Assembly (NCBI GenBank): GCA_024229195.1
Contig: JAAESS010000248.1
Location: forward strand, 1-37,416
DNA from: Flavobacteriales bacterium
GTDB lineage: Bacteria > Bacteroidota > Bacteroidia > Flavobacteriales > Flavobacteriaceae
Length of the DNA stretch: 37,416 nt
Reading direction: 5' to 3'
The translations under genes were made by a program, and so were the position numbers. Positions 21,947-30,128 of this stretch are shown in pieces; position 1 is the first letter of the stretch, and every line of letters starts with the position of its first letter. Under the pieces are notes generated by a model that ran no database searches, was not told the DNA's origin, and worked only from the letters and a program-made list of their open reading frames with translations.

Positions 21947-22786
21947 CTAAGGAATCCATTTCTTTTTAAAATTAGGCTTTCTTTTCTCTAAAAAGGCATC
22001 TCTACCCTCTTTGGCTTCGTCTGTCATATAAGCCAATCGAGTTGCTTCACCGGCAAAGACCTGCTGTCCTACCATGCCATCATCTGTCAAGTTCATGGCA
22101 AATTTCAACATTTTAATGGAAGTTGGTGACTTGGCCAGAATTTCCTGACCCCATTCAAAGGCTGTTGATTCAAGTTCATCATGAGGAATTACCGCATTGA
22201 CCATTCCCATTTCATAGGCTTCCTGAGCCGAATAATTTCTTCCTAAAAAGAATATTTCTCTCGCTTTTTTCTGCCCAACCATTTTAGCCAGATAAGCAGA
22301 TCCATATCCACCATCAAAACTGGTGACATCAGCATCTGTTTGCTTGAATATGGCATGTTCTTTACTCGCCAAAGTAAGATCGCACACAACATGTAGACTA
22401 TGTCCGCCTCCAACTGCCCAACCGGGAACTACTGCTATTACTGCTTTCGGCATAAAGCGAATCAATCTTTGCACTTCTAAAATATTGAGACGATGGTAAC
22501 CATCTGTACCCACATAACCCTGGTGACCTCTTGCTTTTTGATCTCCTCCACTGCAAAATGAATATACACCGTCTTTGCTTGAAGGACCTTCTGCAGAAAG
22601 TAATACCACACCTATGTTAACATCCTCCTGCGCGTCATAAAAAGCTTCATACAATTCTTTGGTAGTTTGCGGTCTGAATGCATTTCTGACATCAGGTCTG
22701 TTAAAAGCAATTCTGGCTATGCCATCGCACTTCTTGTAGGTGATATCTTCAAATTCTTTTACTATTGTCCAATTAGTTGGATTCAT
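21947..22786 (-). CDS. menB: 1,4-dihydroxy-2-naphthoyl-CoA synthase
   Basis: Crotonase fold: FNRPDVRNAFRPQTTKEL, SFCSGGDQKARGHQGYVG, VVPGWAVGGGHSLHVVCDLTLAS, DADVTSFDGGYGSAYLA. Confidence 0.95.
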   Translation of the reverse strand: MNPTNWTIVKEFEDITYKKCDGIARIAFNRPDVRNAFRPQTTKELYEAFYDAQEDVNIGVVLLSAEGPSSKDGVYSFCSGGDQKARGHQGYVGTDGYHRLNILEVQRLIRFMPKAVIAVVPGWAVGGGHSLHVVCDLTLASKEHAIFKQTDADVTSFDGGYGSAYLAKMVGQKKAREIFFLGRNYSAQEAYEMGMVNAVIPHDELESTAFEWGQEILAKSPTSIKMLKFAMNLTDDGMVGQQVFAGEATRLAYMTDEAKEGRDAFLEKRKPNFKKKWIP

Positions 22787-22859
22787 TTGATAAGTTTTAC
22801 AGATTGTACAAAATAATTATGCCTATTCAACGTTGGATAATTAATTAATCGAAGCGAAA

Positions 22860-22893
22860 TTAACAAAAGTTTAGAGATTAAACTTCTTGTTAA
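22860..22893. repeat. 14-bp inverted repeat with one bulge, TTAACAAAAGTTTA-gagat-TAAACTT(c)TTGTTAA
   Basis: Read directly from the sequence in the menB/esterase divergent region. Confidence 0.8.
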
Positions 22894-22936
22894 TCGTTTT
22901 TGTCATGCAAACAAAAAACAATTTAAACTTCATCTC

Positions 22937-24157
22937 ATGAGAAAATTAGTGCTATTATTTTTCTTTGTTTCTTTTATCGGGCAGGCTCAGGATAATATTA
23001 TTTATAAAAAATTCAACTCCTTCAACCTGAATGAGGAAAGAATTTTAAAAATTTACGTTCCTGAATCTTTTCAGGAAGATGATCAAAATACCTATCCGGT
23101 AACGGTTATTTTTGATGGAGAATTTCTCTTCGATGTCTATGTTGCAAACACAAAATTATTTGCATCTAGAGACAAAGCTCCTGAACAAATCGTTGTTGGC
23201 ATTTTTCAGAACCAGAATGAAGAGCGTTATTCAGATTGTGATTACAGCGAAGATACGGGTCTTCCTAATCAGGAAAGTTCAAAGTTTTATGGTTTTGTGA
23301 GAGATGAACTTTTACCTTATATAGATGACAACTATCCTACTTCCCTGTTTAAAACAATCATGGGAAATACATTGACTGCCAACTTTACAAACTACTTTTT
23401 CTTGGAAAGTACGCCTGTTTTTAATGCATATATCAATATCAATCCCAGTTATGCTACTGATATGCATGAAAAACTAGAATCTCAAAGCCAGAATTTGATC
23501 ACACCCTATTACTATTATCTCAGTGGTGGTGATTTTAATACTGAAAAGAGAACTGATGGCATCAACAACACCAATAATTTACTAAAACTTTCAGAAAATC
23601 CAAATTTCAAATATCACTATGATGATTTTTCAAATTCTAGTAAAACTGCCTCGATCGGACAAGCTATTGCCAGTGGTATAGGTTTTACTTTTCGACAGTT
23701 TGCAGCTATTTCACAGGAGGAATTCGAAGAAGAGATTGCAGGTATGGAACCTGGCGATGCGATTGAATATCTGGAAAGAAAATATGTAGAAATTGAATAT
23801 TTATATGGGTCTAATGTAAAGATCAGAGAGAGTGATATTTACAAAATAGAGCCGATTATTATTGATAAATTAAATGGTGATTATCTCGAGGAATTTGGAA
23901 AAATGATCATGAGATTGTATCCGGAAACACCTCTGGGAGATTATTATATTGGTCTTTATTACGAAACAGGTTTTGAATATAAGAAGGCACTTAAGCATTA
24001 CAAGAATGGTTATGCTAAAATTGGTTCTGATAATGCGAACTCAGATGGATACTACGCGAATATTGAAAGAGTACTTGAAAAGCAAAGAGCTGAGCGACTT
24101 GGCTATTATGAAGAAGAAGTTCCGGAGGAAGAATTAGACAATGAAAATGAAGGGTAA
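22937..24157 (+). CDS. Secreted alpha/beta-hydrolase (esterase D/IroE-like) family protein, probable pseudoenzyme, with C-terminal TPR-like region
   Basis: Signal peptide ...GQA|QD; ILKIYVPESF...YPVTVIFDGEFLFD; GNTLT in place of GxSxG; C-terminal PLGDYYIGLYYETGFEYKKALKHYKNGY. Confidence 0.7.
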   Translation: MRKLVLLFFFVSFIGQAQDNIIYKKFNSFNLNEERILKIYVPESFQEDDQNTYPVTVIFDGEFLFDVYVANTKLFASRDKAPEQIVVGIFQNQNEERYSDCDYSEDTGLPNQESSKFYGFVRDELLPYIDDNYPTSLFKTIMGNTLTANFTNYFFLESTPVFNAYININPSYATDMHEKLESQSQNLITPYYYYLSGGDFNTEKRTDGINNTNNLLKLSENPNFKYHYDDFSNSSKTASIGQAIASGIGFTFRQFAAISQEEFEEEIAGMEPGDAIEYLERKYVEIEYLYGSNVKIRESDIYKIEPIIIDKLNGDYLEEFGKMIMRLYPETPLGDYYIGLYYETGFEYKKALKHYKNGYAKIGSDNANSDGYYANIERVLEKQRAERLGYYEEEVPEEELDNENEG

Positions 24158-24173
24158 GATACTGAAAATCAGT

Positions 24174-25889
24174 TTATTTTATAAATTCAAAATAATCTTT
24201 TAAAATCCGGTCATTATCTTGATTGGGTGTAAAAATCTCTAGTAAAGCAGGTTTCCCTGTATTTACATAAAACGAAGTCAATGCTGTTTTCAATTCTGAT
24301 GAATTATTCACGGAGTGATAGTCAAAATCATGCATTTCGCATAAATAAGAAGCATTCAGATTATGAGTTGTTTCAAAAAAATCAAGCGCATCTGAATCTA
24401 TTGGTCCGGGAATGATCCTAAAGATACCTCCACCACTATTATTCACTAAAATAATTCTAAAATTTTGAGGTACATAGCTGTTCCAAAGCGCATTGCTGTC
24501 ATAAAAGAAACTGACATCACCAGTGATAAAAACCGTTTGTTTTTTTTGAGTAAAAGCCGCTCCCAAAGCGGTTGAAGTACTTCCGTCAATACCACTTGTA
24601 CCCCTGTTGCAAAAAACATGAATACTCGGATCCATATCAAACAGTTGTGTATAGCGGACAACAGAACTATTCGCCAATTGTAAATAAATATGAGAGGGCA
24701 GCGTATTCAAGATACTTTCAAAAACACTCATATCAGAGTACTCAATACCTTTAAGGTATTCCTTATGCTTTAACCCTCTTTGATTTTTTAAAAGAAGCCA
24801 TCTTTTCTGGTATGAACTTTCTAATTGTTCGGTCAGGAAAAAAAACTGGCTAAAGAATAATTTTGGAGAAATATTAAAATACTGCGATAGACAATCAAAG
24901 GTATCAAGTGAACCCAAAGCATCAATGTGCCAATGTTCTTCAGGCTTGTAATTTCTCAAAAACTGCTTGATTCTTTTAGAAACTACCATCCCCCCAAAGG
25001 TCAGCAAAACATCAGGTTTTAGCTCATTAAATTCTTCATCACCAAGAGGAAAAATAAGCTGATCAATATGATCGATAAAATGAGCCCCATGAATGTTTGA
25101 AATGGTTTCCGTTAAAATAATCACTGATGGATCCTTGATTAAATGATCCATCTGAATCTGAATCAATTCATCAGGAACATGACTTCCAATAAGCACTATT
25201 TTCTTTGGAGATCTATTCCATTTTGATGCAAATTTCTCAAGTTCGCTGACGGCCCAGGGAGTCTCATCTAGCAGTGACTCCGTAGCAATCGAAGCTTGCT
25301 TAATCAATGAATCCGTAAAATCATATAATTCCGAAACCGTTTCATAAAGTGGTTCAGAAAAAGGTATGTTAATGTGAACAGGTCCCATCCGATCCTTTGC
25401 AACTGTCAAGGCTTTTTTAATTTTTATACCATTTACTTTTTGCAGATCATCTCCTGAGAGCTGAGTTCCTCTGCCCTCTTCAATGAGACAAGTTTCAAAA
25501 CAGATATGATTTGAAAATACAGCTTCCTGTCTTATGGTTTGACCATAGCCAATATCGATAAGGTGCTTCGGCCTATCGGCTGAGAGAATCAATAAAGGTA
25601 TTCTACTGTAGTAAGCCTCCGCTATGGCGGGATAATAATTTAATAAAGCTGAACCGGAAGTACATAAAAGTGCAACTGTTTTTTGATCCTGTTGTGCCAT
25701 ACCCAAGGCAAAAAAAGCAGCGCTTCGTTCGTCAACAATGCTAAAAGTCTTGATATCCGGGTGATTTACAAACCCAAGAGTAAGGGGTGCGTTTCTGGAT
25801 CCCGGAGAGATGACGACCTTCTCAATTCCATGGGCTACACAGGTCTGTAATAACAATTGTGCGAGTTCTTTTTTAGGATACTTTGGCAT
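24174..25889 (-). CDS. menD: 2-succinyl-5-enolpyruvyl-6-hydroxy-3-cyclohexene-1-carboxylate synthase
   Basis: ThDP enzyme: VVISPGSRNAPLTLGF, DERSAAFFALGMAQ, CTSGSALLNYYPAIAEAYYSRIPLL, GDVSFFYDSNALW. Confidence 0.95.
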   Translation of the reverse strand: MPKYPKKELAQLLLQTCVAHGIEKVVISPGSRNAPLTLGFVNHPDIKTFSIVDERSAAFFALGMAQQDQKTVALLCTSGSALLNYYPAIAEAYYSRIPLLILSADRPKHLIDIGYGQTIRQEAVFSNHICFETCLIEEGRGTQLSGDDLQKVNGIKIKKALTVAKDRMGPVHINIPFSEPLYETVSELYDFTDSLIKQASIATESLLDETPWAVSELEKFASKWNRSPKKIVLIGSHVPDELIQIQMDHLIKDPSVIILTETISNIHGAHFIDHIDQLIFPLGDEEFNELKPDVLLTFGGMVVSKRIKQFLRNYKPEEHWHIDALGSLDTFDCLSQYFNISPKLFFSQFFFLTEQLESSYQKRWLLLKNQRGLKHKEYLKGIEYSDMSVFESILNTLPSHIYLQLANSSVVRYTQLFDMDPSIHVFCNRGTSGIDGSTSTALGAAFTQKKQTVFITGDVSFFYDSNALWNSYVPQNFRIILVNNSGGGIFRIIPGPIDSDALDFFETTHNLNASYLCEMHDFDYHSVNNSSELKTALTSFYVNTGKPALLEIFTPNQDNDRILKDYFEFIK

Positions 25890-25962: not shown

Positions 25963-27078
25963 TCAACTGCCAATTACTGTCTTCATAATTAAACTCTTCT
26001 GAACTGTTTCCTGCCATTCCGATAGCGGGTCACTGTCCTGTGTAATACCTCCCCCGACATAAATTACAGCTGAAGGTTGCTGATTCTCTTTCAACTCCAT
26101 ACATCTCAAGTTCACAAAAAGATTAGATCGAGTAGAATTTGAAATGTTTTCTCCGGAAGCTGCAATATCATCCTCATGAAAATTCAATTCTCCAAGAAAA
26201 CCCGTGTAAAATGATCTGTCGTAACCTTCTTCTTTCAAAATAAATTCCTGTACTTCCTCTCTGGGTAAACCGCAAACAGCTGCAGTAGGATGCAACTTTT
26301 TTAGAAGTTCATTCAAATTATTTTCTTGACCTAAAAACCCTTTTATATCATTGCATAAATGAAGTAAATTTCCTGCTTTTCTGGTATAGGTTTCACTTAC
26401 ATGAAGATCCAAGCCATCCAGTGACTTAAGGATATGTTCAGTAACGATTTTTTGTTCTTTTCTTTCTTTTTCACCCCATGACACATCAATTGTGTCTTTA
26501 TATTTTTGGGTTCCGGCCAGTGACATCGTTTCAAAAGTTGATCCCTTTGTTTTTAAAAGAGTTTCTGGGCTTGCTCCTGCCCATATGCCAATTTGAGGAT
26601 GATACCAGACATACACAAAAGCCAAGGGATAATTTGACATCAATCTTTTAAAAATCTCAATAACATCGATGTGCTCCAGCCTAACTGTTTCTGATCTTGA
26701 AAGGACAGTTTTTATAAAATCACCCGTTTTAATTCTCTGAATCCCTTTTTTTACAAGCTCCAGGTGCTTTTTTCTAGAATTTTCAAGCTTATCATCATAT
26801 GACTTATTTTTTCTATCAACCGCAAAAATATCTTGATCACCATCCAGCATGCAATTCAACCTTTCTATATTTTCCTCAGAAAATAGTACTGCTTTTTTCC
26901 GTCCATCAAAAGGTGCCATGATAAATCCTGAGCCTTTAAAATCATCTGAATATTCCAAACGGTTATTCTTTTGAACAATTGCGTGCACCAACTTGGCTTC
27001 CGGTTTTCTATATATCACAAAAGGTAGATTCGAAGCTTTTGCCCTATCAATTTTGTTCAATATCTCTTTAAAATTCAT
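25963..27078 (-). CDS. menF: Isochorismate synthase (chorismate-binding)
   Basis: FKTVLSRSETV, GASPETLLKT, SLAGTQK, LHPTAAVCGLPREEVQEFI, FYTGFLGE, VGGGIT motifs. Confidence 0.9.
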   Translation of the reverse strand: MNFKEILNKIDRAKASNLPFVIYRKPEAKLVHAIVQKNNRLEYSDDFKGSGFIMAPFDGRKKAVLFSEENIERLNCMLDGDQDIFAVDRKNKSYDDKLENSRKKHLELVKKGIQRIKTGDFIKTVLSRSETVRLEHIDVIEIFKRLMSNYPLAFVYVWYHPQIGIWAGASPETLLKTKGSTFETMSLAGTQKYKDTIDVSWGEKERKEQKIVTEHILKSLDGLDLHVSETYTRKAGNLLHLCNDIKGFLGQENNLNELLKKLHPTAAVCGLPREEVQEFILKEEGYDRSFYTGFLGELNFHEDDIAASGENISNSTRSNLFVNLRCMELKENQQPSAVIYVGGGITQDSDPLSEWQETVQKSLIMKTVIGS

Positions 27079-27949
27079 CTATGCTTAAACTATTTATAAG
27101 TTCAGTTTTTATGAGATCAAAATTAGTCCAAATTAGTGAATGACCCTCCTCATGAAGTGGAATTAAGGAAAACTTCTTTTTCCCTAACATCTTTTGTAAA
27201 AAAATTGAATTTTCATAGGGAACGATAAAGTCTTCCGTTCCATGAATGGACAGCACAGGTGAGGGGCTCAAATTCCATCTTTTTTCATACTTATTTAATT
27301 CAGTAACATGTCTGATTTTTTCTATACTTGCTCCCCTGAACACTTTCGGAATCATTGATCGTGTAAGCCTCCAATTATACAAATTCATGGCCCAGAACAT
27401 CGGCTCAAGATCTCCCTTGACTGCAGCGGCTAATGCAATCTTTTTTTTGTAATTCAAATCTGAAGCCATCACAACAGTTCCTCCATAGGAATAACCAACC
27501 ATAACGACCTTAGACACATCTAAGTTCCTTGCCAACTGATGTAGTAAATCAACCTCCTCCTGAAGTGTATTCAAGACTTCTCCGGTACGTTTGGGACCAT
27601 ATCCTATTCTGTCATAACTAATCATATTAGCCAGCGTATTTAATGTGCTGTCACTTAAATAACGTTTAAAATCCATGGAGGAGCCTGGAGAGCCATGAAC
27701 AAAAAAAAGTGTTGGTAATAGCGAGTCAATTTCTTTCTGCATACCGACAACTCGCACATGACGATCTTTAAAAAGCTCATAACTTATGACTGGTTGGTCG
27801 ATATCGTCCTCAAATTTTTCAAGAATTTCAGTTTCGGAGACAGGCGAAGTAAATGTGTAGAGCAAAAAAACCAGTATACCCGAAATCGTGAGCAAAGTCA
27901 ATCCAATTATTTTAAAAATTTTTCTGATCAAACTTCGATTCATCCTCAA
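27068..27949 (-). CDS. Membrane-anchored alpha/beta hydrolase
   Basis: N-terminal TM; FFVHGSPGSSMDF, GYSYGG nucleophile elbow, HGTEDFIVP, EEGHSL: intact triad. Overlaps menF start by 11 nt. Confidence 0.85.
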   Translation of the reverse strand: MRMNRSLIRKIFKIIGLTLLTISGILVFLLYTFTSPVSETEILEKFEDDIDQPVISYELFKDRHVRVVGMQKEIDSLLPTLFFVHGSPGSSMDFKRYLSDSTLNTLANMISYDRIGYGPKRTGEVLNTLQEEVDLLHQLARNLDVSKVVMVGYSYGGTVVMASDLNYKKKIALAAAVKGDLEPMFWAMNLYNWRLTRSMIPKVFRGASIEKIRHVTELNKYEKRWNLSPSPVLSIHGTEDFIVPYENSIFLQKMLGKKKFSLIPLHEEGHSLIWTNFDLIKTELINSLSIDEF

Positions 27950-29066: not shown

Positions 29067-30128
29067 TTATCTGATGATATAGGTGTTGGCGCTTTCGTAA
29101 TTGCGAACAACAAAATTAAAGACGACTTGTATGATCTCTCCCATATTTTTACAATTCTTAAACTCCTTATCATGCGTATAATCGATAAGGTCTTTTTTTA
29201 GTCGCTCCACATTTTCATGCGTCGAAATCTGATCATTCTTCATACATTTCATCAGTCTTCGAATTCTGTTCCCTGTGGCTTTGAGTCTTTTCGCCAAAGC
29301 TGATCGTTCCTCCTTTTTATATTGTTCAACCGATTCTTTCCCTAAGCTTTGTTCTACCATTTTCACAAATTCAAAATTATCTGCAAAGAATTGCGGCCTG
29401 TATACTTTCAATTTTCCTTCAAAACTTTGCTGATCAAAATCCATTGCCCTGATCCTGTACTGAACCTGGTCAAAATCATAAGTAGGAACAATCACATAAT
29501 TATAGGCACGCATGTCGCCCAATAATCTTAGGGTACATCGCTCATTAAATTTGACAAACTCCTTAGACAAACGCTGCTTTTCAGTTTTTGATATGTCCTT
29601 AAGACTTTCTTCCATGAACATATCTCCTGGAATCCCCAATACATGCTCTTCTATCAAGGTATCTTTATAGATCAAAAAGTTAATGTGATTGGGAGATAGT
29701 AAATGTTCAAACTCCAGACCATATACTCTCGAAGCGTCTGCTTTTTTTACATAAATGTATGTATAGTTGTCATTTAAAATATTTCTGACCCTGACCCGAA
29801 AAGGCTTTGAATTACCGAAAGTGCAGTAATCAATTTCATCAATTATCAGATTTTCAAGAATCCCTTCACTACCATCACCATGAAGAATATTATACATACG
29901 TTTTAGGCTCATGTCAATCTCATTTTGCTCAAACTCGGGATAGTATACCCTGATCCAAAGCGTATCCTTATCATATTTATCATAAACCGTAACAGAACCT
30001 GAAAATCGCAATAAATCATCGTAAAAAATTGGGATCTTGATACTTCTGTTATAGGTACTCAGATAGTTATATAACTCTTCATTAATAGGAAAAGTAGGCT
30101 TTTTTCTTGAAATTAATTTTTCATTCAT
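29067..30128 (-). CDS. Conserved hypothetical protein with protein-kinase-like motif order
   Basis: YIYVKKAD ... GLEFEHL ... TLIEEHVLGIPGD ... LLGDMRAYN ... AMDFD in kinase order. Confidence 0.6.
   Translation of the reverse strand: MNEKLISRKKPTFPINEELYNYLSTYNRSIKIPIFYDDLLRFSGSVTVYDKYDKDTLWIRVYYPEFEQNEIDMSLKRMYNILHGDGSEGILENLIIDEIDYCTFGNSKPFRVRVRNILNDNYTYIYVKKADASRVYGLEFEHLLSPNHINFLIYKDTLIEEHVLGIPGDMFMEESLKDISKTEKQRLSKEFVKFNERCTLRLLGDMRAYNYVIVPTYDFDQVQYRIRAMDFDQQSFEGKLKVYRPQFFADNFEFVKMVEQSLGKESVEQYKKEERSALAKRLKATGNRIRRLMKCMKNDQISTHENVERLKKDLIDYTHDKEFKNCKNMGEIIQVVFNFVVRNYESANTYIIR

Follow-up and report, generated by a model that had tools for sequence, protein, structure and literature searches.

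Coch_1243 from Capnocytophaga ochracea (PDB 4W9R) is an uncharacterised protein that served as a homodimer target in CASP (T0852) and CAPRI (T94), and it has been called a putative esterase according to Pfam only (PMC5030136). In a search of the literature outside subscription titles, 4W9R was mentioned only in the CASP/CAPRI paper, and no description of the pseudoesterase family discussed below was found. The nearest structures of catalytic relatives are 3GFF, an IroE-like serine hydrolase from Shewanella oneidensis, and 2QM0, BES from Bacillus cereus. Here we compare these proteins with one encoded in a 37,416-nucleotide stretch of DNA from a marine Flavobacteriales bacterium (contig JAAESS010000248.1; hereafter, the window), which named relatives place in or next to Lutimonas.

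The open reading frame in question (22937-24157, plus strand) encodes a 406-residue, putatively exported protein whose fold is of the IroE/BES esterase type. As originally predicted, it lies between menB (21947-22786, minus strand; ECH_1, E = 2e-60) and menD (24174-25889, minus strand; TPP_enzyme_N / TPP_enzyme_M_2) and on the strand opposite to both, so that menB is a divergent and menD a convergent neighbour; both adjacencies are conserved. A scan of 22780-24300 for sigma-70 promoters and terminators gave signals near chance.

Fold and active-site positions

The protein begins MRKLVLLFFFVSFIGQAQ, and residues 1-18 (22937-22990, plus strand) read as a putative Sec-type signal peptide with no lipobox Cys, a pattern repeated in the orthologues. 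As a lipobox is lacking, the mature protein should be free in the periplasm or secreted. Residues 30-144 match the Pfam Esterase model PF00756 above its gathering score (37.9 bits against 22; E = 2.3e-9), over profile positions 3-122 of 251 only, and 17 of 18 orthologues match the same model. An AlphaFold2 model built from an 18-sequence orthologue alignment (mean pLDDT 86.6) consists of an alpha/beta-hydrolase core up to about residue 255, a helix bundle, and a disordered acidic tail. The IroE/BES-like core (about residues 19-255; 22991-23701, plus strand) is modelled mostly with pLDDT above 90, while in the remainder (residues 256-406; 23702-24157, plus strand) helices span 260-387 and pLDDT is below 50 from residue 393.

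When the model was searched against the PDB with Foldseek, 4W9R ranked first (E = 9.6e-27, TM-score 0.81/0.90), followed by 3GFF, 2QM0, and feruloyl and siderophore esterases. The original prediction had described the protein as esterase D/IroE-like with a TPR-like C-terminus, and each half of that description fared differently. The nearest catalytic relatives are indeed of the IroE/BES type, but an identity as esterase D / S-formylglutathione hydrolase was rejected, as esterase D structures rank lower (TMq about 0.38) than 4W9R, the IroE-like structure and BES. The C-terminal half is helical in the model, yet matches to TPR models are weak (2 of 18 orthologues, best E = 0.004).

Within the core, residues 142-150 read MGNTLTANF. 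The degenerate nucleophile elbow GNTLT (residues 143-147; 23363-23377, plus strand) aligned column for column in phmmer with GHSFG of 3GFF and GHSLG of 2QM0, which places Thr145 (ACA, 23369-23371, plus strand) at the position of the nucleophilic Ser and replaces the last Gly of GxSxG by Thr147. The segment DDFSNSSKTASIGQ (residues 229-242) includes Lys236 (AAA, 23642-23644, plus strand), which phmmer pairs with the catalytic His of 2QM0. A profile-profile alignment with active paralogues reproduced this register both at the elbow and near the His, and codon arithmetic agrees with the codons originally predicted for both replacements. Position 201, a candidate for the catalytic acid, is mostly Asn in the clade of the window protein and Asp in its sister clade, in an alignment that is gapped there against active enzymes. 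In the model, the elbow region has an ordinary strand-elbow-helix arrangement. Measured against an IroE/BES-type enzyme, the fold is present, and both GxSxG (here GNTLT) and the catalytic His (here Lys236) are absent.

Distribution and conservation of the family

A model search with a cut-off of E = 1e-30 or better found the family in 224 of 247 good Flavobacteriaceae genomes, from 183 of 203 genera; most of the listed non-carrier genomes are small. Outside Flavobacteriaceae but within the order, the strongest match (E = 5.9e-39) came from a genome whose protein is an active-type GHSFGG sequence. Strict GxSxG was found at the elbow in none of 126 family members, and in a phylogenetic tree the family formed one group with the active GHSxGG esterases outside it (SH-aLRT 100). 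This group splits into two clades. The first, which includes the window protein and is mostly located between menB and menD (the men clade), has lost both the Ser and the His: among 51 non-redundant representatives, 43 have Thr145, two have Ser145 and none has His236, and the other residues at 145 include Glu, Asp, Lys, Arg, Gly and Asn. In the sister clade, position 145 is mostly Asp (48 of 76) or Gly (24 of 76), with Ser once, and His236 is kept in 61 of 76. The window protein shares with 4W9R-type members the two-domain fold, the lack of GxSxG, and the elbow G-x-x-x-T-A-N-F-x-N-Y. Pro272 lies within an insertion that all 51 men-clade representatives have and that is missing from the sister clade and the outgroup, a clean clade marker.

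The most economical history on this tree would have the Ser lost early, in the family stem, and the His lost later in the men clade and again, several times over, within the sister clade's GYD group. One sister-clade protein (L151, 3947-5107, minus strand) is the one case seen in the family where Ser145 and His236 occur together (GHSFTANF ... ADHVS), though with Thr147; judging from its sequence, it could be an active or re-activated member, and some family members could therefore be active.

Orthologues from the same genus, at 65-88% identity, carry the same active-site changes, so the loss of Ser and His is not private to this strain. Residue 145 is Thr in 94 of 99 orthologues of a partly redundant set, and all four Thr codons are found there within the genus, as expected for a residue under selective retention. 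A median pN/pS of 0.22 over 136 pairs points to strong purifying selection on the gene, and while dS is saturated in most pairs, the 13 without saturation give a dN/dS of about 0.1. Positions constant in both clades include D60, R97, D100, G143, F150, N152, P170, K282, Y283 and D300; because N152, K282, Y283 and D300 differ from the active outgroup, the family appears to be under a constraint of its own.

These data agree with the original prediction that the gene is retained rather than decayed: it is under purifying selection, near-universal in Flavobacteriaceae, and has an intact signal peptide. Nor did intact motifs turn up in any close orthologue, or a strict GxSxG at the elbow of any family member; the modelled geometry of the elbow is normal. 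The His segment that the prediction had given as usual for the family, ATHYSL, is that of the sister clade, where the Ser is missing as well. The family-wide loss of the Ser, and the location of most of the family away from men genes, go beyond what had been predicted.

Proposed function, genomic setting and alternatives

We consider it likely that these proteins are exported, periplasmic pseudo-esterases that act as binding or scaffold proteins, having lost the Ser family-wide and, in the men clade, the His as well. The window protein would have no hydrolase activity. A site for a ligand or partner could be made up of its remodelled elbow, G-x-x-x-T-A-N-F-x-N-Y, together with a loop in which R-x-x-D-C is conserved, and the helical C-terminal domain may serve protein contacts. 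Like the original prediction, we infer the scaffold or ligand-binding role.

A narrower version of the binding-protein proposal would make the pseudoesterase the periplasmic partner of a flippase-like membrane protein (LPG_synthase_TM; PF03706, TIGR00374), acting in envelope lipid or glycan handling. The gene for this protein lies upstream in the sister clade, in a block of fixed order on one strand, panC-panD-flippase-like-pseudoesterase-radA. Among 70 sister-clade loci, panC is upstream on the same strand in all 70, the flippase-like gene was detected in 68, radA is downstream in 65, and panD gives a separate match in 45. However, the two genes are apart in the men clade, and the C. ochracea copy lies elsewhere, beside a thymidylate-synthase-like ORF, with the copy of a related Capnocytophaga species beside radA. 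Moreover, panC, panD and radA are functionally unrelated, so adjacency within the block may be passive. When 20 genomes lacking the family were checked, 19 retained the flippase-like gene and 17 retained menD; thus neither the flippase-like neighbour nor menaquinone synthesis strictly needs the pseudoesterase. We regard the partnership as possible but rather doubtful. Tandem pseudoesterase copies, two or three, occur at the pan locus in L169, L171, L175, L176, L189, L190 and L191, and some of the extra copies have diverged elbows (for example, GHDIMGNFINS).

How the two genomic homes are related can be approached from both the loci and the trees. In three men-clade genomes (L229, L230, L231) panC, panD, the flippase-like gene and radA are all in place as a block and only the pseudoesterase is missing from it, the last two matches lying 20 to 80 bases apart; in Lutimonas, the pan block itself is split and radA is elsewhere. 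An unrooted tree of concatenated panC-panD-LPTM-radA places the five men-clade genomes, as one group (SH-aLRT 100), among pan-locus taxa, whereas in the protein tree the men clade stands next to the pan-locus proteins as a whole. AU tests on the protein tree reject a host-like placement (p = 0.003, narrow group), but the comparison group alone is also rejected (p = 1e-12), so the conflict between protein and host trees is more general. The men-locus gene may be either a moved orthologue or an old paralogue. Tentatively, and with less than even confidence, we suggest that an esterase became a near-universal non-catalytic envelope protein (a ligand sensor or flippase-partner subunit) near the origin of Flavobacteriaceae, and that one lineage then moved the gene to the men locus and lost the last catalytic residue. 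If true, this conversion and move would be a natural series of stepwise active-site loss.

A counterpoint to the pseudoenzyme proposal is that nucleophilic catalysis by Thr is possible in principle, and 84% of the men clade has Thr at position 145. The family might then still be hydrolases with a non-canonical nucleophile, either Thr145 (43 of 51 men-clade representatives) or, in the sister clade, Asp145 (48 of 76 rows) with His236; the latter two occur together in 40 of 89 sampled proteins. Such a pair resembles the GHD elbow found in hydrolases with an Asp nucleophile, for example epoxide hydrolases. Yet the men clade is wholly without His236 and has Glu, Asp, Lys, Arg, Gly or Asn at 145 in other members, a large sister-clade group combines Gly145 with His236, and others combine Asp145 with Glu or Asp at 236. 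These mixed combinations indicate that the two positions are not coupled, and Asp145-His236 was rejected as a catalytic pair for the family in general. Thr147 also stands where an elbow normally requires a small residue. Continued hydrolysis by such a nucleophile is therefore unlikely.

Less probable again is that the protein is an accessory of the menaquinone pathway, kept between menB and menD through joint work. Among 80 loci of closest relatives, menB is divergent upstream in 74 (within 400 bases in 51) and menD convergent downstream in 63, and about half of the loci without a detected menB or menD have insufficient flanking sequence. However, the putative signal peptide is at odds with cytoplasmic MenB and MenD, the gene is on the opposite strand, the sister clade is away from men genes in the 70 loci examined, and menD persists in most of the non-carrier genomes checked (17 of 20). 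The men location of the pseudoesterase is probably incidental.

The men locus has other features of note. An insert of about 7.5 kb, with ORFs of 789, 428 and 1233 residues, separates menB from the pseudoesterase in L067 (2420-9980) and about 20 loci, many of them Lutibacter. The men cluster of the window encodes a second alpha/beta hydrolase (27068-27949, minus strand) that has a hydrophobic N-terminal anchor and keeps both GYSYGG and a His (EEGHS); it occupies a possible MenH place, and no counterpart was detected in some of the related men clusters. A 353-residue protein with no Pfam match (29067-30128, minus strand) is a conserved neighbour of the men cluster in both Lutimonas and Lutibacter.

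Finally, although the window's genome is fragmented (415 contigs) and 7.4% contaminated, gene decay or a fault in the draft assembly has a negligible chance of explaining the changes, and a strain-specific mutation or assembly error is ruled out by the same-genus orthologues at 65-88% identity that share them under strong purifying selection.

Comparison with known esterases and probable pseudoesterases

The window protein has in common with 3GFF and 2QM0 the alpha/beta-hydrolase core and the elbow register; unlike them, it has neither GHSxGG nor the His, and it has a C-terminal helical domain of its own. Esterase-TPR paralogues of the same genus and genome (L002, L028, L030, L031) share the signal peptide, the esterase domain and the helical/TPR C-terminus, but keep an intact GHSYGG (or GHSYAG) and LHG and are an outgroup to the pseudoesterase family. 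The pan-locus pseudoesterases (for example, L119, L154 and L178) resemble the window protein in lacking GxSxG and in the T-A-N-F-x-N-Y elbow helix, and differ in having Asp or Gly at 145, mostly His236, and the panC-panD-flippase-like-radA context. Active paralogue, Ser lost with His kept, and both lost thus make a graded series in which to study the passage from enzyme to binding protein.

4W9R shares the two-domain fold over nearly its full length (26% identity), with no Ser and no His; its elbow is more diverged (ASEEAG), and its gene is not beside men genes or radA. About nine in ten Flavobacteriaceae genomes keep a protein that is matched by the Pfam esterase model, and so would be annotated as an esterase, although the usual esterase mechanism is not open to it. 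Treating the family as pseudoenzymes puts this annotation right and makes sense of a crystal structure that had been left uncharacterised. Catalytically dead proteins are known from hydrolase superfamilies; the apparent novelty here is that a pseudoesterase family is near-universal within a single bacterial family, occupies two conserved genomic locations and has lost its active site step by step.
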